Shown in pieces: positions 40,595-51,348 of a stretch of 58,153 nt of DNA; within the stretch, counting starts at the first letter, position 1, and each line of letters opens with the position of its first letter. Below the pieces are notes generated by a model. The model searched no databases. It was not told where the DNA came from and was given only the letters and a program-made list of their open reading frames with translations. Source of the stretch: Chloroflexota bacterium (GTDB lineage Bacteria > Chloroflexota > Anaerolineae > Anaerolineales > VGOW01); NCBI GenBank assembly GCA_016875735.1, contig VGOW01000020.1, positions 1 to 58,153 of the forward strand, written 5' to 3'. Position numbers and translations under genes: made by a program.

Positions 40595-40628
40595 TCGGTA
40601 ATGGGTAATCAGTAATTGGTGATCAGTA
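40565..40628. repeat. Heptad-periodic inverted repeat between prmA remnant and moeZ
   Basis: ATTACCC/ATTACCG/ATCGCCG on the left and ATCGGTA/ATGGGTA/ATCAGTA/ATTGGTG/ATCAGTA on the right, in seven-base register. It ends inside the last codons of moeZ. Confidence 0.8.
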
Positions 40629-41819
40629 CATGGGCACTTTGGGGTCGATCTCGCGCGCCCAAGCCATGATGCCGCCCTTGAGGTTCTTGAGTTTGCGGAA
40701 GCCCGCGCCGCGCAGAAGTTCGAGCGCGCGCGCCGAGCGGATGCCGGTGCGGCACAACAGCACAATGTCCTCTGCGGAGTCGAGCTCGTTCATGTGCGCC
40801 GGGAGCGTGCCCAGCGGAATCAACTCCGAGCCGTTGAGGTGAGTGATCTCCCACTCGTGCGGCTCGCGCACATCGATGAGGCGGAAGTGTTTGACGCCGC
40901 CGCTGGTGTCGATTCGCTCCTTCAACTCCTTCACCGTCATATCCCAACCCTCGCCCGATCCCACGTCCTCTTGATGATCGTTCATGGGCATGCCGCAGAA
41001 TTGCTCGTAGTCGATCAGTTCGGTGATGGTGGGATGATCGGAGCAGACGACGCAATTGGGATTCTTTCGCAGTTTCACTTCGTCGATGGTCATCGCCAGC
41101 GCGTCGTATAGCAGCAAACGGCCCACCAGCGGCTCGCCGATGCCGGTGATGAGTTTGATGGCTTCGGTGGCTTGAATGGTGCCCACCGTGCCGGGCAGGA
41201 CGCCGAAGACTCCGCCTTCGGCGCACGAGGGCACGAGGCCGGGCGGCGGCGGCTCGGGGAACAGACAGCGATAGCACGGCCCGTGTTCGGCCCAAAACAC
41301 CGAGGCCTGCCCCTCGAAGCGGAAGATCGATCCGTACACGTTGGGTTTGCCCAACAGCACGCACACATCGTTGACGAGGTAGCGCGTGGGGAAGTTGTCG
41401 GTGCCGTCGATGATGATGTCATAGGGGCGGGCGATGTCGAAGGCGGTGGCCGAGGTGAACAGTTCGTTGTACGTGTCCACTTGAATATCGGGATTGATGT
41501 CGAGAATCCGATCCCGCGCCGATTCCACTTTCAACTTGCCCACCGTGGATGTGCCGTGCACGACTTGCCGTTGCAGGTTGCTGTTGTCCACCACATCGTA
41601 ATCCACCAGCCCGATGCGGCCCACTCCGGCGGCGGCGAGATACATGGCCAGCGGCGAGCCGAGCCCGCCCGTGCCAATGAGCAGAACCGAGGCGGCTTTC
41701 AATTTCTTCTGCCCGCTCAATCCCACTTCGGGCATGATGAGGTGGCGCGAGTAGCGTTTGATTTCTTCGTTGCTCAACTCCACCGAGTTGGGGTCAATGT
41801 GTGCGAGTGCGATGCTCAT
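40623..41819 (-). CDS. moeZ: MoeZ-type adenylyltransferase-sulfurtransferase
   Basis: 398 residues. N-terminal E1-like domain (RYSRHLIMPEVGLSGQKKL, IGTGGLGSPLAMYLAAAGVG, GTDNFPTRYLVND) with a Cys4 zinc site (CYRC and CVVC), and a C-terminal rhodanese domain with active Cys in LLCRTGIRSARAL. It activates the C-terminus of a MoaD/ThiS-like carrier and converts it to a thiocarboxylate. In this operon the carrier is CysO (42122-42403), as in the mycobacterial CysO pathway. A heptad array ends at its ATG, leaving no Shine-Dalgarno sequence. Confidence 0.95.
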   Translation of the reverse strand: MSIALAHIDPNSVELSNEEIKRYSRHLIMPEVGLSGQKKLKAASVLLIGTGGLGSPLAMYLAAAGVGRIGLVDYDVVDNSNLQRQVVHGTSTVGKLKVESARDRILDINPDIQVDTYNELFTSATAFDIARPYDIIIDGTDNFPTRYLVNDVCVLLGKPNVYGSIFRFEGQASVFWAEHGPCYRCLFPEPPPPGLVPSCAEGGVFGVLPGTVGTIQATEAIKLITGIGEPLVGRLLLYDALAMTIDEVKLRKNPNCVVCSDHPTITELIDYEQFCGMPMNDHQEDVGSGEGWDMTVKELKERIDTSGGVKHFRLIDVREPHEWEITHLNGSELIPLGTLPAHMNELDSAEDIVLLCRTGIRSARALELLRGAGFRKLKNLKGGIMAWAREIDPKVPMY

Positions 41820-41888
41820 AGGGAATGAGGCGAATGGCGAATGACGAATGACGAATTATCGTCCATTGTCTATCGTCCACCGTCTTTC
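41820..41888. repeat. Heptad array upstream of moeZ
   Basis: ATGACGA/ATGGCGA units followed by TCGTCCA/TTGTCTA/TCGTCCA/CCGTCTT in seven-base register. It overlaps the last codons of the small gene at 41870. The first units match those before the GTPase gene. Confidence 0.82.
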
Positions 41889-42115
41889 GTCGTCGGCCGG
41901 CGGATGTTGGGCGAGCCGTGCGCGCACCATAGAATGCGATCGGGGATGCGCCAGCCGTTGCTCGAAAACACGTCGGCGGTGAATTGAATGGCCGCCATGC
42001 GGTGATCGGCTTCCACCACCGTGCCGGTCAACCAATCTTCCACCACTCTTCCGTTGGCGAGATGGGCGCATTTCACTTCGGCCTTCTCGCCCACCACGAA
42101 CTTCTCTTTCGGCAT
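41870..42115 (-). CDS. Small protein of unknown function in the CysO operon
   Basis: 81 residues from ATG 42115, six bases after the cysO stop. MPKEKFVVGEKAEVKCAHLA and VVEDWLTGTVVEADHRMAAIQF suggest a small beta-barrel (Tudor/KOW-like turn pattern), but I do not recognise a family. The last ~10 residues are encoded by the heptad array and are probably not conserved. Confidence 0.7.
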   Translation of the reverse strand: MPKEKFVVGEKAEVKCAHLANGRVVEDWLTGTVVEADHRMAAIQFTADVFSSNGWRIPDRILWCAHGSPNIRRPTTKDGGR

Positions 42116-42121
42116 TGGCTC

Positions 42122-42403
42122 TCACCCCATCGCGCCGCCGGCCACCGAAGGCACGATGCGAAGCTGATCATTTTCTTTCAGCGCCGTGTTCTCGCCCTGC
42201 ATGTGCCGCACATCTTCCTGCCCGAGAAAAACATTGACGAAAGCGCGCAATTCGCCGCTGTCGGTGTAAAGGTGCTTGCGCAGATCGGGGTGGCGGGCGG
42301 TGAGATCGTTGAGCGCCGCGCCGACGGTGTTGCCGGAAACGGGAACTTCGGCGTTGCCTCCGGCGTAGGGCCGGAGCGGGGTGGGGATACGGATGGTTGC
42401 CAT
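42122..42403 (-). CDS. cysO: CysO/MoaD-like sulfur carrier protein
   Basis: 93 residues from ATG 42403. Ubiquitin-like fold: MATIRIPTPLRPYAGGNAEV, VGAALNDLTARHPDLRKHL and FVNVFLGQEDVRHMQGENTALKENDQLRIVPSVAGGAMG. The carrier Gly-Gly is followed by AMG, so three residues would have to be removed before thiocarboxylation; the JAMM peptidase encoded upstream is the obvious candidate. It would carry sulfur as a thiocarboxylate from MoeZ to CysM. Confidence 0.93.
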   Translation of the reverse strand: MATIRIPTPLRPYAGGNAEVPVSGNTVGAALNDLTARHPDLRKHLYTDSGELRAFVNVFLGQEDVRHMQGENTALKENDQLRIVPSVAGGAMG

Positions 42404-42420
42404 TCGAGAAAAGTCTCCTT

Positions 42421-42480
42421 CAATTCTGAACTTCAAATTCCAAACTCCAAACTTCCAAACGGGTTATCAAGTTTGGGCGC
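42421..42480. repeat. Heptad array between mec and cysO
   Basis: CAAATTC/CAAACTC/CAAACTT/CCAAACG units in seven-base register, with a short mirrored CAAGTTTGGG. Confidence 0.7.
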
Positions 42481-42486
42481 TTCGCG

Positions 42487-42915
42487 TTATGAAGCAAGTT
42501 GGAAAGTTTCTTCATTAAACTTGCTTCGGTCATCGCTCAACACCCACGAGCGGGCGTTGGCGGCTTTGCCTTTTTGCACCGAGACGATGAGATACGAATA
42601 CCACGGGAGCGCGTATTCGCGATCATATTCCGAAGCCTGCGCCGGGTGATCGGGGTGCGAATGAAAGACGCCGATCACGTCGAGGCCGAGCCGCTCGGCT
42701 TCCATTTCGCCGTCGAGCATATCCTGCGCGGTGATGAGGTAGCGATGATACTGCTCGCCGGACTCGAAGTTGTTGGCGAAGGGCCTGATGGCCTGCGCGG
42801 TTTTGCTTTCGCCGTTGGCCGCGCCGATGAGAATGCCCGCCCCTTCGTTGGGGTAGGCGGCCTCGAGGTGCGCGGAGATTTGAGAATAGAGGTTGGACGG
42901 GAGGATGAGGGCCAT
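42487..42915 (-). CDS. mec: JAMM/M67 metallopeptidase (Mec)
   Basis: 142 residues from ATG 42915. The JAMM zinc motif is complete: Glu in PNEGAGILIG and GVFHSHPDHPAQASEYD (HxHP...SxxD). In mycobacteria Mec releases cysteine from the CysO-cysteine adduct. Related enzymes also trim residues after Gly-Gly of the carrier, which the AMG tail of CysO here would require. It is located between cysM and cysO, separated by heptad arrays on each side. Confidence 0.93.
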   Translation of the reverse strand: MALILPSNLYSQISAHLEAAYPNEGAGILIGAANGESKTAQAIRPFANNFESGEQYHRYLITAQDMLDGEMEAERLGLDVIGVFHSHPDHPAQASEYDREYALPWYSYLIVSVQKGKAANARSWVLSDDRSKFNEETFQLAS

Positions 42916-42916
42916 G

Positions 42917-43020
42917 AAGGCGAGTAGCAGGCGGCAAGTTGCAAGTCGACTGTGGCAAGTGGCAAGTGCTCGTTCTCCTACCTGCCACCCGCTACCTGCC
43001 ACTTGCTACTTGTTGCTCCA
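42917..43020. repeat. Heptad-periodic inverted repeat between cysM and mec
   Basis: AGTAGCA/GGCGGCA/AGTTGCA ... TGTGGCA/AGTGGCA on one side and CTACCTG/CCACCCG/CTACCTG/CCACTTG/CTACTTG on the other, all in seven-base register. It includes the end of cysM. Confidence 0.82.
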
Positions 43021-43959
43021 GAATCTTTCCGAAAGGTATTTGAACCCGGCATCGGGGAAGATGGCGACGACGACGCCTTCGTCGAGCGTGCGCGCTACGT
43101 CGAGGGCGGCCACTGCCGCCGCGCCGGCCGAGATGCCCACGAACAACCCTTCTTCGCGCGCCAGCCGCAGAGTCATGCGTTGAGCCTCCTCGGTGTTCAC
43201 GCTCAAGTTTACATCGGCCAGCGTCTCATCGTAAATGGCCGGTTTGATCGCCGTGTCCATGTGTTTGAGGCCTTCGAGTCCGTGAAACGGCGCGTCGGGT
43301 TGGACGGCCACGAGTTGAATGGCCGGGTTGTATTCTTTGAGTCGGCGCCCCGTGCCGGTGAGCGTGCCGCTCGTTCCCAGTCCGGCCACGAAGTGAGTCA
43401 CTTGCCCGTCGGTCTGCTCGATGATCTCCGGGCCGGTGCTGAGATAGTGCGCCTGCCAGTTGGCCGGGTTGCTGTATTGATTGGCGTAATAGTAGCGGTC
43501 AGGGCGTTCGTGGGCGAGGCGGCGGGCTTCGAGGATCGCGCCATCGGAGCCTTCGAGCGGATCGGTGAGCACAATCTCCGCGCCGAGCGCGCGCAGGATG
43601 GAAAGGCGTTCGGGGCTGGCGTTGGCCGGGACGGCCAACGTGATTCCGATTCCGCGCGTCGCGCCGAAGGTGGCGTAGGCGATGCCCATGTTGCCGGAGG
43701 TGGAGTCGAGGAGGCGGCGCTCTCCCGATGAGTCGAGGTCGCCGTTCTCGAAGGCGGCGCGCAGGATGTTGGCGGCGGGGCGGTCTTTCACCGATCCGCT
43801 GGGGTTGAACCATTCGGCTTTGGCGAACACCTGCACGGCGGGGGCCAAATCGGCGGCGAGGCGGCTCAGGCGGATGAGCGGGGTGTTGCCCACCCGCGAT
43901 TCGAGCGTGGCCGGTTCGCTGTAAAGGAAGTTGAGTTTGGGTTGGGTGAGCATAGGCAT
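43006..43959 (-). CDS. cysM: CysM-type cysteine synthase (PLP-dependent)
   Basis: 317 residues from ATG 43959 (ATG 43953 possible). PLP-fold signatures: VGNTPLIRLSRLA, the PLP Lys in NPSGSVKDRPA, STSGNMGIAYA (substrate loop) and GLGTSGTLTGTGRRL. The carrier-dependent CysM enzymes use O-phosphoserine and CysO thiocarboxylate. Linkage to mec, cysO and moeZ supports that; the serA/serB-like genes 6 kb away could make phosphoserine. A structured leader precedes it. Confidence 0.95.
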   Translation of the reverse strand: MPMLTQPKLNFLYSEPATLESRVGNTPLIRLSRLAADLAPAVQVFAKAEWFNPSGSVKDRPAANILRAAFENGDLDSSGERRLLDSTSGNMGIAYATFGATRGIGITLAVPANASPERLSILRALGAEIVLTDPLEGSDGAILEARRLAHERPDRYYYANQYSNPANWQAHYLSTGPEIIEQTDGQVTHFVAGLGTSGTLTGTGRRLKEYNPAIQLVAVQPDAPFHGLEGLKHMDTAIKPAIYDETLADVNLSVNTEEAQRMTLRLAREEGLFVGISAGAAAVAALDVARTLDEGVVVAIFPDAGFKYLSERFWSNK

Positions 43960-43970
43960 CGAGTCTCTGG

Positions 43971-44069
43971 AAAACAAAAAGGCCAAATAGCGAAAAAAAA
44001 GAGCGGAACGCAATAGCACCGTCGGAAAACTGAATTTCCGGGGTTGCGCCCACTCTTCGCTATTTGGCC
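43971..44069 (-). terminator. Attenuator-like terminator in the cysM leader
   Basis: On the minus strand GGCCAAATAGCGAA (44069-44056) pairs perfectly over 14 bases with TTCGCTATTTGGCC (43994-43981), followed by TTTTTGTTTT. The enclosed 61 bases hold a further hairpin. It lies 12 bases before the cysM ATG. An upstream CTTCGCT (44105-44099) can pair with AGCGAAG (44061-44055) and would block the stem. Confidence 0.8.
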
Positions 44070-44110
44070 TTCGGTGTTTTGGTCAGGCTAGGGTACGAAG
44101 CGAAGGTGGG

Positions 44111-44158
44111 TCAGCGCCCCCGCTCCATACACATACAAGCCAGCATGATATTTCTCAT
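44111..44158 (-). CDS. Cys/Met-rich leader peptide of the cysM operon
   Basis: 15 codons and a TGA: MRNIMLACMCMERGR. It has two Cys codons (TGT) and four Met codons in total, with the ACMCM core just before the stop. The ATG lies 10 bases after a TATAAT, so it should be translated from a nearly leaderless RNA. Position between promoter and terminator matches amino-acid attenuation leaders. Too short for gene finders. Confidence 0.6.
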   Translation of the reverse strand: MRNIMLACMCMERGR

Positions 44159-44168
44159 AGTTATCTGG

Positions 44169-44196
44169 ATTATATCGCTCTGAGTTGGACTGTCAA
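44169..44196 (-). promoter_or_regulatory. Promoter of the cysM leader
   Basis: On the minus strand TTGACA (44196-44191), 16-base spacer, TATAAT (44174-44169); both hexamers are perfect. Start of transcription expected near 44162, four bases before the leader-peptide ATG. Confidence 0.85.
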
Positions 44197-46179: not shown

Positions 46180-49100
46180 CTATCTTCGAGTCGTGCCGGC
46201 CACTGTCCCGCTGTATCCCGAAACGCCGTCCGCGTTGTAGGCTTGCACGCGATACCAGTAGGTGGTGTTGCGAGTCAGGCCGGTGTTGATGAAGCGGGTG
46301 GTGTTGCGCGGCAGGGCGGCGATGCGTATCCATGTCGCGCCGCCATTGAGACTGCGTTCGACGTAGAAGCCTGTCTCGTTCGTGGCGTTGTCGCGCCAGC
46401 GGATGGTGATCGAGTTCCGGGTTCTATCGGAGACGCGCAGGTTGGAGGGCGCTTGCGGGACTTCGCCCGGCGTTACGACGCTCACGCTGAGGGTGTACGG
46501 CGAGGCGTCGATGGCGTTGTAGGCTCGCACGCGATACCAATAAGTTGCCTTCGGCGCAACGCCACTGTCAACATAGGTCGTTGTGTTCGCGGCCACCGAT
46601 GGGGCGATGACGGCGAACGTTCCGGGCACGCCTGCGTTATCGGGCGCGCGTTCCACTGTGAAGCCCTGCTCGTTGTTGGCATTGTCCGTCCATGTGAGGG
46701 TGACAGTGGGCGGGTTGGGGCCGGGCGCCGAGGGCACGGCGGGCGGAATATCGGGCGTGGTCACGTTCACGATGGTCGTCTGCTGTGAGTCGCCTGCGCC
46801 GTTGTAGGCGAACACGCGGTAGTAATACGTGGTGGCCGGAGCCACGGTGTTGTCGGTGTACGAGATGGGGGCTGGCGCAACCGCCACACTCCGCGCGACG
46901 TTGAAGGTCGTCAGGCCGGTGGTGAAGGCGGCGTCGAGCGCGCGCTCCACACGGAAGCCGTTCTCGGTTCCGGCGTTGTCTGTCCATGCCAGATCGACTT
47001 GATAGGCGTTGACCGCAACAGCCGAGAGCGCAGTCGGATCGTTCGGCGGGCCCTGCGTGCACATCTGCACCGGCCCGTTGACGTTCCAGCCGGAACTGCC
47101 GGCCGAGTTGGCCGCCTCGACCACGTAGTTGTAGCATTTTCCGAGAACCGGCGGGGTGTACGGGGTGGTGGGGTTCCCCCAGATCACGTCGACCTGAGTG
47201 AAGTCGCCATCGGTGAACGAGACGCCGCCAAAGCCGGTGGTGCTGGGGAATTCGGCGATCTTGGTGAGAGTGGCGCCCACCGCCGCATCGGCGCGGAAGA
47301 CGAGCCACTTGGTTTCATTGTCGCTGCCGTCGTACCACGACATCTGAATCCAGTTCGGGCCGCTGTTCACGTAACGCAGATTCTCTGGCAACAGGGGCAA
47401 GTCCCACGGCGTCTTGGCAATCACTTCCACCGAAGCCGGGCCGTAGCCCGCGCCGTTGAAGGCTTCCACTTTGTAGGTGTAGCTCTTGTTGACGTTGATG
47501 GCTGTGTTGACCAGTTGAGTGTTGTTCGCGCCCAACACGATGGCGAGTTTGTCCCACGAGGCGGCGGTCGCGCCAACACCGTATCTGATCCACACGCGGT
47601 AACCCTCAGCGCCGGCCACTGCATCCCATGTGATGGTTTGGGTGTAGGCTTCAATCACGCCTGTGGCGGGGTTGATCATGCCGCCCACACATGCGCCGGT
47701 GACGGGATCGCATTCCGGTGAGACGCGGACTCCGGTCACTTGGGCGGGCAGGGCGGCGGTGGTGTCGGCCACAGCCACAGGGTAGGGCGCGCCCATACCG
47801 GTGGTGTGCCACACTGCGTAGGAGAGGCCGCCCCAGTTATCGCGCAGAGGCTCGGTGATGAAACCGGCCAACTCCAACTCAGCCGAGACTTCGGCCAGCC
47901 CGAACTCGTCGCTCAGGTAGTTCGGTTCGAGCGGGTAGTTGGCGCTCCACGGGCGCGGCGGGCCTTCGGGCCGCACGGTGGAATTATCGTTTTCGCGCAG
48001 GTGTTCCATGAACTCGCGGGTGTGAGTTTGCCATAGGGCTTCGGCGCGAACGCTGAGCGTGGCTGACGGATCGGCGGTGAACCGATAGGTCACTTCATCC
48101 CAGTTGCGGCCATTGGGGTAGCGCGTGGATTGGCCGGTGGCCGAGTTGTATTCCTCGTAGGGAACGAAGGTGGCCGGGTCGTAGTTCCAGAATTTGACGC
48201 CCGACTGGCGATACTTGGAGTAGTCGAAGCCGCGAGGCGGGATGCGGTTGTCGAAGAGGATGAAGTCGTTCAGCACATCCAGCGAGGGCGTGCAGGCGGT
48301 CACATCATCGTTGTTGCAGGCGCCGGTGATGCGCTGATAGATCATCACGGCGTTGCTGCCTGTCGCGGTGGCGTCGATCACCGGCGATTGCGCCAATTGC
48401 AAACCGGCTTGGGGGCTGGCGTCGGTATGCAGGGTGGCGGTGGCGCTGTCGTAGTAGCCGGATTGATAGACGACTTTGCCGTTGCCATCCTTCACCGCCA
48501 AGTTGATCCAGAGGCGGCGCCCATCGGGGTAGCCGGAGGGGACGCGGTGGCCGGTGTTGTTGATCACTTTGACTTTGACTTCCCAGATGCCGTTGGTTGC
48601 ATCCACCAAAGTCGGGGCTTGGCTGATCTCCACATCCACGCCGTCTTGCATCATGATCTCGGTGTTGCGCTGGTTGCGATCCCACATCGAGTCGCGGTTG
48701 GAGAGCATGCCGGGGAAGATGCGCGGGTCGTTGCCGGTGCCCACCCAGAATCCGCCAGCGCCTTCGCCGCCGACTTCGATGTCCACTTCGGGGTACAGCT
48801 CTTTCATGATCATCGGCAGGTCGCGGTTGGCGCCGGCCAGTTTGTGGACGGCGGTGTTGGTGCGCGTCTTCGAGTACGGCCAGCCGCCCGGCTCGCCGTA
48901 GGGGTCGGAGTTGAAGCTGCCGGTCACAGCGTCGCTGTATTCATGCGAGAGGCGCGGCATGTGGCAGTCTTGGCAGGTTTTGGCCTCGGCCCCGGCGCTG
49001 TAGGCGCTGTACTTCCATTCGGTGTACGTGCGCTGTTCGGGCATGCCGTGATTGAGAATCGGGATGGTCACTTTGTGGCATGCGCCGCAGAACTCGGAGG

Positions 49101-51348
49101 TTTGGATGAAGGCCTTGCCCGGCGGGCTGTTAGGGTACATGGCCGTCGAGTGTTCGGGCGAGACCGATTGGCACTGATAGCACGGCGTCCCGTTGGGGTT
49201 GAGCGGCACGCCAGCGGGAACGTCGAGCTGGATGAGCAGTTCGCCCAACAGACCGATGGCCGGTTGGCCGCCGATGTCGTTGCCCCATATGTCGATCCAG
49301 CCGGGCGGATACACGCCGTAAGTTTGGCCGGTGTAATCGCCGCCCACACTGTAACCGCCCGGGGCGGTCGGGTTTTCGACGAGAGGCAGATCGGACATGT
49401 AGATGTTGGCCGTGCCGGGGTAGCGCCCGACATACATCATGCCATCGGCGAATTGCAGTGAGGCGTTGCCGTAGGGGTTGCCTTCGGCCAGAGTGAGGTC
49501 GCCTTCTTGATCGACGAACGGGTTGCCGCTGTGCGGCCAATCGTCGATTCCGGCCATGAGATTCCACACCGGGTCGTTCGGATCGAGATCGGCTCGTTTG
49601 TAGGTGACGGCGCCAATGGCGCGGTGGCACATTTCGCAGGGGATGCCTTCGTCGTCGGTGGAGAGCAGGATCGAGTGAAGCATTTGGCTTCCGTCACCGG
49701 ATCCATTCAATGCCGGGTCGAAGCGGCCCGAATACCAGCCGTTGGGGCTGTGACAGCGGAAGCACATGTTGCCGCCGCCGTCTTGGCCGGTGGCGCTTTG
49801 CAGGGCCGAGTTGACGATGATCTCGTTGGCGCGGAAGATGGGATCGCGCGCGGTGTTGGCGCTGTAGCCGCCGACGTAGTCGCTGTGGCACTGCGCGCAC
49901 TGGGCGATGATCTGATCTTGGCGCGAGGCTTGATTGAAACCGTGAATCTGGCTGCCGGTGGGCGAGTAGGGGTTGATGCCGCGCACGGCAATGGCTTCGA
50001 TGAGCGACTTCTTGATGATGCGCGGTTTGCCGGAGTGCGAGTTGTGGCATTGGTTGCACAGCTCACCCGATTGGATGGAGGGCCAGTTTGGTCCCGAGCC
50101 GCTGAAGTGCGTTTCGTACGCGCCGCTCGCCAGAATGTATTTCGTGTCCGGGTTCTCCACCAATGGATCGAATTGATAATCCAATCCATCGAAGGCCATG
50201 GCTTCCATCGCCGCGTAAATCCAGATGCGGGCCAGGTTGGCCGTTCCGGTGGTCAAAGTGCACGTCAGACTTCCGGCCTTGCATCCCGACACGCCGTTGA
50301 TGTCGGCTCCCGCTTCGGGGTAGCTGGCCAGTGTTTGGAAGGTGACTGTGCCGAGCGAGTCGCCGAGGTTGGCCGGGTTGGGCACGGTCACCGTGACCGG
50401 GGCGGGCAGGGTGACGAGTGTCTTGACTTGATAGGGGAATGCCAGATCGAGCGCGTCAATATACGTGGCGACCGTTGTGCCGTTGGGGATGAAGGTGACG
50501 GCGACGGCCTCTTCCCAGATGCCGGGTGCGCCGGGAATTGGGGAAGTAGGATTCGGATTCTTGTACGAAGTGCCGTCGTAAATGAGGTGGCCGGTTCCAG
50601 CCGTTGCCGGGTCGTTGCCCCACGTGCCGCCCTGTGGGTAGCCGGGTGTGCTGATGGCCGGAGGAACATACGTGCCGCCTTTGATGAGCACGACCCGAGG
50701 CGCAAAGACACCGGGCGATGTCTCCGTCATCTGGTCGGCTTTGATCTGGCCGTTGGCATCTTTGTAGATGATGCCTTGATAGTAGGCCAGTTTGGTTCCA
50801 TGTCAGGCCATACAACTTTCGGAGCCGGGGCGGATCGTTTCTTGATGCTCGATCTGATTCACCGACATGGGCCGGTCTTCGTAGGTTTCGAGCACGAAGG
50901 GGTGGCCGTCGATCAGCACGTTCCAATAAGGCAGGTCTTGAGTCTTCGACCAGCCTTTGGGCGCGTGAGCGCCGCCGTCACTGCCGCCGTACACTGTGCG
51001 GTTCCCAGCGGCGATCATGAAGGAGTTGTACTGATCGGTGTGACAGCCCTTGCACACTTCCATATCGAAGTGCACTTTGGGGTAGAGCATCGGATTCTTT
51101 GGCGATGCCGCATCGGCCACGTGCGCCGCCGCCCCCTCGTGGCAGGTCACGCATTCGAGGCCGGAGTGCCCTCCGGCTTCCGCCTCGGTCACGCTGGCCG
51201 CATGGCAGCCCACGCAATCGGCCCCGATGGTTGTGGCCGCCGCTCGGGCGTTGGCCTTCGGCGCCGCCGCCGCGGTGGCGGCCAGCGCCAGGCTAATGGC
51301 GAGCACTGCGATTGCAGTTGCGATGAAGAGCAGTTTTTTATCTCGCAT
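46180..51348 (-). CDS. Secreted multiheme c-type cytochrome with FnIII repeats, interrupted by in-frame TGA
   Basis: 1722 codons from ATG 51348 (GGGAG eight bases upstream) to 46180. Signal peptide residues 1-29. CXXCH motifs: CVGCH (45), CVTCH (66), CKGCH (99), CMA-TGA-H (179), CNQCH (431), CAQCH, CFRCH, CEMCH, CGACH and CQDCH, giving nine intact motifs, one interrupted by TGA and one CYQCQ lacking His. The frame on both sides of the TGA (50803-50805) is the same, and the sequence after it (HGTKLAYYQGIIYKDANG) is a sensible continuation. Residues ~1200-1722 hold about five fibronectin III domains. Probably an extracytoplasmic electron-transfer or redox enzyme. The TGA may encode selenocysteine or be a nonsense mutation. 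Divergent from a NarL-type regulator. Confidence 0.8.
50746..50805 (-). other. In-frame TGA with downstream nested hairpin
   Basis: The TGA at 50805-50803 replaces the second Cys codon of CXXCH. Downstream, CTGGCC/GGCCAG (50790-50785 with 50751-50746) encloses GGCATC/GATGCC (50775-50770 with 50760-50755) and a 9-base loop. This lies in the zone where bacterial SECIS elements occur, but the loop lacks the usual GU-containing signature, so it is only suggestive. Confidence 0.3.

Follow-up and report, generated by a model that had tools for sequence, protein, structure and literature searches.

The DNA between a consensus promoter and cysM in the window (the whole stretch of 58,153 nucleotides of Chloroflexota DNA that was analysed) very probably encodes a cysteine-specific, ribosome-mediated transcription attenuator of the classical kind; judged from sequence, we place the probability of this reading at about 0.9. 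It rests on the sequence elements themselves, on their conservation and covariation among relatives, and on a regular association with cysteine genes. An initial annotation of this DNA had proposed a Cys-codon attenuator ahead of a CysO cysteine operon, and the Cys leaders, the covariation, the terminators and the cysteine-gene regulon all agree with that proposal.

Organization of the leader region and the cysM operon

The elements of the candidate attenuator and the genes behind it are as follows:

44169-44196, minus strand: sigma-70-type promoter TTGACA-N16-TATAAT, 12 of 12 consensus matches (-35 element 44196-44191, -10 element 44174-44169, 16-nt spacer)
44111-44158, minus strand: leader peptide ORF of 15 codons, MRNIMLACMCMERGR followed by a stop, with Cys codons at 44137-44135 and 44131-44129
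44092-44132, minus strand: protector hairpin of 16 bp (44132-44115 with 44108-44092), from the MFE structure of the free RNA
44099-44122, minus strand: 5' arm of the antiterminator (arm A), comprising the last codons CGG GGG CGC TGA and CCCACCTTCGCT; A:B duplex of -34.8 kcal/mol, with covariation over 46 relatives
44037-44061, minus strand: arm B, AGCGAAGAGTGGGCGCAACCCCGG, common to the antiterminator (as its 3' arm) and the terminator (as its 5' arm)
43993-44056, minus strand: inner intrinsic terminator, B (44056-44044) with C (44013-44000) followed by T8 (44000-43993), from folding under ribosome masks
43976-44069, minus strand: outer perfect 14-bp stem GGCCAAATAGCGAA/TTCGCTATTTGGCC (44069-44056 with 43994-43981) followed by TTTTT, a second terminator
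43006-43959, minus strand: cysM (cysteine synthase), the first structural gene; Pfam PALP
42487-42906, minus strand: mec-like JAB/JAMM metalloprotease; Pfam Prok-JAB, 2kcq
42122-42436, minus strand: cysO-like ThiS/MoaD sulfur carrier with the C-terminus VPSVAGGAMG; Pfam ThiS
40623-41819, minus strand: moeZ/moeB-like adenylyltransferase-rhodanese; Pfam ThiF and Rhodanese, NCBIfam best matches MoeB/MoeZ

The promoter and the 15-codon leader with two Cys codons near its end were both recovered as first annotated. No second promoter-like site was found in the scanned stretch of the window, where shuffles predict 0.3. The leader could start equally plausibly at the ATG at 44158 or at an in-frame ATG at 44146 (giving MLACMCMERGR), so that the 5' untranslated region would be ~4 nt long if the first ATG is used (10 nt past the -10 element) and ~16 nt long if the second is; leaderless translation of this ORF is therefore possible. 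The two Cys codons are separated by a Met codon (C-M-C) and form no consecutive run. Given local Cys usage, the chance of at least two Cys codons in 14 codons is ~0.009, an enrichment that is weak alone and decisive when combined with the conservation described below. A search of NCBIfam returned no match for the leader, which was queried solely as a doubled peptide, so that this result is little informative.

The antiterminator, which had also been proposed initially, consists of 12 bp between CCCACCTTCGCT (44110-44099) and AGCGAAGAGTGGG (44061-44049), and its pairing reaches into the end of the leader ORF (CGGGG with CCCCG). The 14-bp stem and T-run before cysM likewise hold up, as a perfect stem followed by T5, although the inner B:C terminator with its T8 had been overlooked. 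The last stem ends ~20 nt upstream of the cysM start. The protector hairpin, whose strength differs among relatives, may hide arm A when the leader ORF is not translated.

The genes behind the attenuator are ordered cysM-mec-cysO-(81-aa ORF)-moeZ on the minus strand, and the joint presence of cysM, mec (JAB), cysO and moeZ identifies a CysO-type cysteine operon by gene content. The best NCBIfam matches of the cysM product are cysM/cysKM (under their cut-offs, however), and it is related to M. tuberculosis CysM (3dwg_A); the best solved relative of the CysO-like protein is M. tuberculosis CysO (3dwg_C, E=5e-18). Three residues follow the GG of VPSVAGGAMG in the latter protein, which suggests that it would need trimming before sulfur loading, perhaps by the adjoining JAB protease. 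The 81-aa ORF (41870-42115, minus strand), situated between cysO and moeZ, has no Pfam or NCBIfam match and, among the loci compared, is present only in close relatives (L002 and L031). Elsewhere in the window, a 1516-aa ORF (46180-50730, minus strand) combines several CxxCH motifs with fibronectin-like repeats and may encode a fusion between a multihaem cytochrome and FN3-like repeats.

Conservation of the leader and its alternative structures

The initial annotation had suggested a comparison of the DNA upstream of cysM among relatives, and there both the Cys codons and the alternative stems are conserved. We assembled 110 cysM loci by searching the proteins of 61 genomes, almost all of them from the same order as the window, and by scanning GTDB contigs; where labels are given, nearly all are Chloroflexota or Anaerolineae. 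Upstream DNA could be read at 107 of these loci, and 103 of the 107 carry a Cys-codon leader; the three left out are L003, L026 and L031, in which contig ends cut the leader region. The leader is truly absent from L013, L046, L103 and L110, the last two of which are labelled Acidobacteria. Relatives that kept the terminator without a Cys-codon ORF would speak against attenuation, and L013 alone has that appearance. Upstream of cysM at L013, a promoter, start codon and T-run remain while the usual Cys leader and arms A and B are gone; this may represent a natural loss of the attenuator by deletion.

The leaders typically end in the pattern C-x-C-x-x-R-G-[SRL]-stop. Counting codons back from the stop in 98 distinct leaders, Cys occupies position -8 in 87 and position -6 in 87, Arg position -3 in 81 and Gly position -2 in 82, and the residues upstream of C-x-C are variable. 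Between the two Cys the leaders carry Leu, Met, Ile, Thr, Ser or another residue, and Met is therefore no control codon: of the Cys and Met codons to which a regulatory role had originally been given, only Cys is conserved. In a few lineages (L030, L097, L104, L105 and L108) runs of Cys replace C-x-C, as in MFVQFCCCCCCEMGR, MQTCLCCCCLKKGR and MFTYLCCCVCHQPGR (each followed by a stop), so that the leaders remain rich in Cys although their precise sequence differs. One further leader, MCNKCMCNKRGH (upstream of cysM at L020), contains an internal CNK duplication and encodes its Arg as AGG rather than CGG.

We considered the mixture of TGT and TGC among the leaders (127 and 91 overall) as synonymous variation and rejected that interpretation, since codon choice is position-specific. 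The first Cys codon is TGC in 76 of 86 canonical leaders and the second (codon -6) is TGT in 85 of 86; the window's genes prefer TGC over TGT (41 vs 7). With codon choice nearly constant at each position, it is the lineages with Cys runs and the regulon that argue for selection acting on the amino acid.

A promoter with at least 11 of 12 consensus matches precedes 84 of the 98 leaders, with a 16-nt spacer in nearly all. The ORF starts 5-11 nt past the -10 element in 11 of the 98, and 32 have a Shine-Dalgarno-like start; the remainder mostly have a short untranslated region lacking a Shine-Dalgarno sequence. Leaderless translation appears likely from the sequences of L018, L019, L151, L153 and L156. 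Leaderless translation of the leader, as initially annotated, is thus possible in the window but is no defining property of the attenuator family.

The antiterminator was examined with 15 hand-assigned A:B pairs in 46 aligned relatives. These pairs are formed in 84.9% of alignment cells, compared with 37-59% when slid by 1-3 columns, an advantage that is partly expected because the structure was drawn by hand from per-sequence duplexes, and the sequences tested thereby helped to define it. Stronger evidence comes from compensatory (two-sided) changes, which occur in 11 of the 15 pairs, and from shuffling: none of 500 shuffles matched the real paired fraction, number of compensated pairs or covariation score. 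The z-scores of the A:B duplexes are modest (median -1.85), as the region is GC-rich, and RNAalifold applied to a MAFFT alignment returned no consensus structure, because arms A and B sit at a variable distance from each other. Intrinsic terminators (at least 6 T in 8, with a hairpin at or below -12 kcal/mol) were found in 82 of 86 leaders and in 53 of 258 shuffles (20%), and tandem terminators in 46 of 86 leaders and 7 of 258 shuffles.

These last figures bear on whether the Cys ORF might instead govern ribosome access to cysM or the loading of Rho, as in mycobacteria, with the hairpins incidental. Cys-rich short ORFs upstream of cys genes in Mycobacterium are described as acting without an evident intrinsic terminator (PMC1262725; Canestrari 2020, as related in PMC9094748 and PMC9031893), and the last stem in the window lies only ~20 nt from the cysM start. 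T-run terminators are nonetheless far more frequent in the leaders than in shuffles, the covarying antiterminator uses the same arm B as the terminator, and the distance from leader to cysM ranges from ~150 to 410 nt, a variation that fits transcriptional control better than translational. We therefore regard translational or Rho-type control as very unlikely.

The near-constant placement of C-x-C at codons -8 and -6 from the stop, with a single residue between, could also reflect a peptide (C-x-C-x-x-R-G) that itself stalls the ribosome by nascent-chain arrest, or by metal or thiol sensing, rather than a response to Cys-tRNA. The conservation of the Arg-Gly-Ser codons, however, lies at the nucleotide level (CGG-GGN-TCG): they belong to arm A, which runs on beyond the stop and forms the duplex with arm B. 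When they change, arm B changes with them: RG to RS is accompanied by CGGAGTTCG:CGACTCCG, RG to QG by CAGGG:CCCTG and RG to RN by CGGAATTCG:CGAACTCCG, and other variants occur in the lineages with Cys runs. Together with the variable residues before C-x-C and the replacement of C-x-C by Cys runs, these observations make an arrest peptide highly improbable. A T-box or a metabolite riboswitch (such as one for SAM) in place of a peptide leader is extremely improbable: the sequence GGGTGGTTGCGACCCCGC in some relatives looks like a T-box core by virtue of its GGGTGG stretch, but that stretch covaries with arm A (in L012 and L016 it is GGGTAG, opposite CTACC) and is therefore a pairing arm, and Rfam yielded no match at the gathering threshold or up to E=10.

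A proposed switch and its behavior in folding calculations

From the leader codons and the genes controlled, we infer that scarcity of Cys-tRNA is the signal, and that it would be read through ribosome stalling and converted into termination or read-through. Transcription would begin at about 44162 and a ribosome would start on the short ORF. With plentiful Cys-tRNA, the ribosome would reach the stop codon and cover arm A, leaving B free for C; the B:C hairpin and T8, backed by the outer stem and T5, would then halt RNA polymerase before cysM. With scarce Cys-tRNA, stalling would occur on the UGU codons, which lie six to eight codons upstream of the stop, and the ribosome would leave most of arm A free to capture B before C is made. 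Pairing of A with B would preclude the terminator and the operon would be transcribed.

We represented the ribosome by masking the RNA that it would cover, with a footprint of assumed size. For the RNA of the window ending at T8, a ribosome on either Cys codon is predicted to give the antiterminator, and a ribosome on the stop codon, or none at all, to give the terminator. Among 86 leaders folded at the point where B had just been transcribed, an A:B pairing of at least 8 bp was predicted in 84 for a ribosome on the first Cys codon, in 85 for one on the second, in 11 for one on the stop codon and in 80 when no ribosome was present. The terminator is the most stable fold of the full-length RNA even with a stalled ribosome, and the switch must therefore be kinetic, decided during transcription. 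Kinetic switching is likewise assumed for the trp attenuator. Equilibrium MFE switching at full length did not favour the real leaders (8 of 86, vs 81 of 258 shuffles) and is uninformative.

Since the antiterminator is predicted in 80 of 86 untranslated leaders, behavior in the absence of translation is uncertain and, in these models, seems to differ from that of E. coli trp. One could extend the attenuation model by supposing that the fixed C-x-C and near-invariant second UGU make a tuned sensor, which might also report the thiol or metal state of the nascent chain, and that termination needs leader translation, with untranslated leaders reading through, unlike in E. coli trp. We consider that extension very unlikely.

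The regulon and its relation to known cysteine leaders

A covariance model (R2), built solely from cysM leaders, was run over genomes irrespective of their gene content. It matched 178 of 301 genomes in the order of the window genome, representing 76 of 112 genera. Of 400 genomes drawn evenly across the phylum, it matched 37, all from the same class as the window genome, a number that is an underestimate given the strict filters used. The DNA downstream of 55 matches (mostly second copies or matches outside the best-scoring group) was read, and one of these was cut by a contig end; all 54 that were readable precede genes for cysteine supply, sulfur or sulfur transfer.

The targets comprise cysM-mec, cysK-cysE, DUF4395-thioredoxin-cysK and cysE alone; cystathionine beta-synthase (CBS), once with gamma-lyase (CBS-CGL); and sseA-sufE, yedE-sseA, sulfite reductase-cysH (sir-cysH) and a rhodanese/ThiF/cysM cluster. 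Searches support the names cysK, cysE, sulfurtransferase and SufE, while CBS, gamma-lyase, YedE, DUF4395, sulfite reductase and CysH were assigned by reading the sequences alone. No cysS was present among the 54 targets read. The window genome has one convincing copy of the attenuator, and a simple C-x-C...CGGGG pattern occurs there at close to the chance level (22 matches, vs 17 in a reversed control).

Leaders with Cys codons have been predicted upstream of cys operons in Mycobacterium and Propionibacterium acnes and of cbs in Bifidobacterium longum (Seliverstov et al. 2005, PMC1262725). The mycobacterial leaders resemble the Chloroflexota family in having a short Cys-codon ORF immediately upstream of cysteine biosynthesis operons, with Cys as the control codon. 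They have Cys runs, are leaderless and lack conserved terminators (PMC1262725), and those of M. smegmatis respond to cysteine through what is termed translational control (Canestrari et al. 2020, via PMC9094748 and PMC9031893); the Chloroflexota family, in contrast, has a terminator and an antiterminator, usually a C-x-C spacing, and a leaderless start only in a minority. The uORFC-8-2 motif, predicted upstream of cysS in Rhodobacterales (PMC8632094), shares predicted ribosome-mediated Cys attenuation with an intrinsic terminator. Its tandem Cys codons are usually at positions 14-15 and it is confined to cysS and to Rhodobacterales, whereas the present family carries C-x-C before cysM and precedes biosynthesis and sulfur-transfer operons in Anaerolineae.

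The trp/his/leu-type attenuators of Proteobacteria share with it the use of control codons, the logic of protector, antiterminator and terminator, and coupled transcription and translation. The Chloroflexota family differs in its amino acid and sequences, in an antiterminator arm that overlaps the last leader codons and stop, and in the read-through predicted by folding for most relatives when translation is absent. No match to the family was found in Rfam 15, and the open-access literature searched yielded no account of a cysteine attenuator from Chloroflexota. Although the mechanism belongs to a known type, the family appears to be new, as do its host group and regulon.

A single cis-acting switch would accordingly span many routes to cysteine in Anaerolineae: the CysO pathway, CysK/CysE, reverse transsulfuration, sulfurtransferases, sulfite and sulfate reduction, and thiosulfate import. 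Its regulon offers a means of annotating cysteine genes in the largely uncultured Chloroflexota, and the family constitutes a terminator-type counterpart of the mycobacterial cysteine leaders. Its members also provide a natural series for attenuator tuning, extending from C-x-C to six Cys in a row and from leaderless-like to Shine-Dalgarno starts.

In one locus of reversed arrangement (L180), a second Cys leader, MNNYPVHSFRCICMRRGRL, lies downstream of the yedE and sseA genes, which suggests either that another gene is under attenuation or that two attenuators follow one another.
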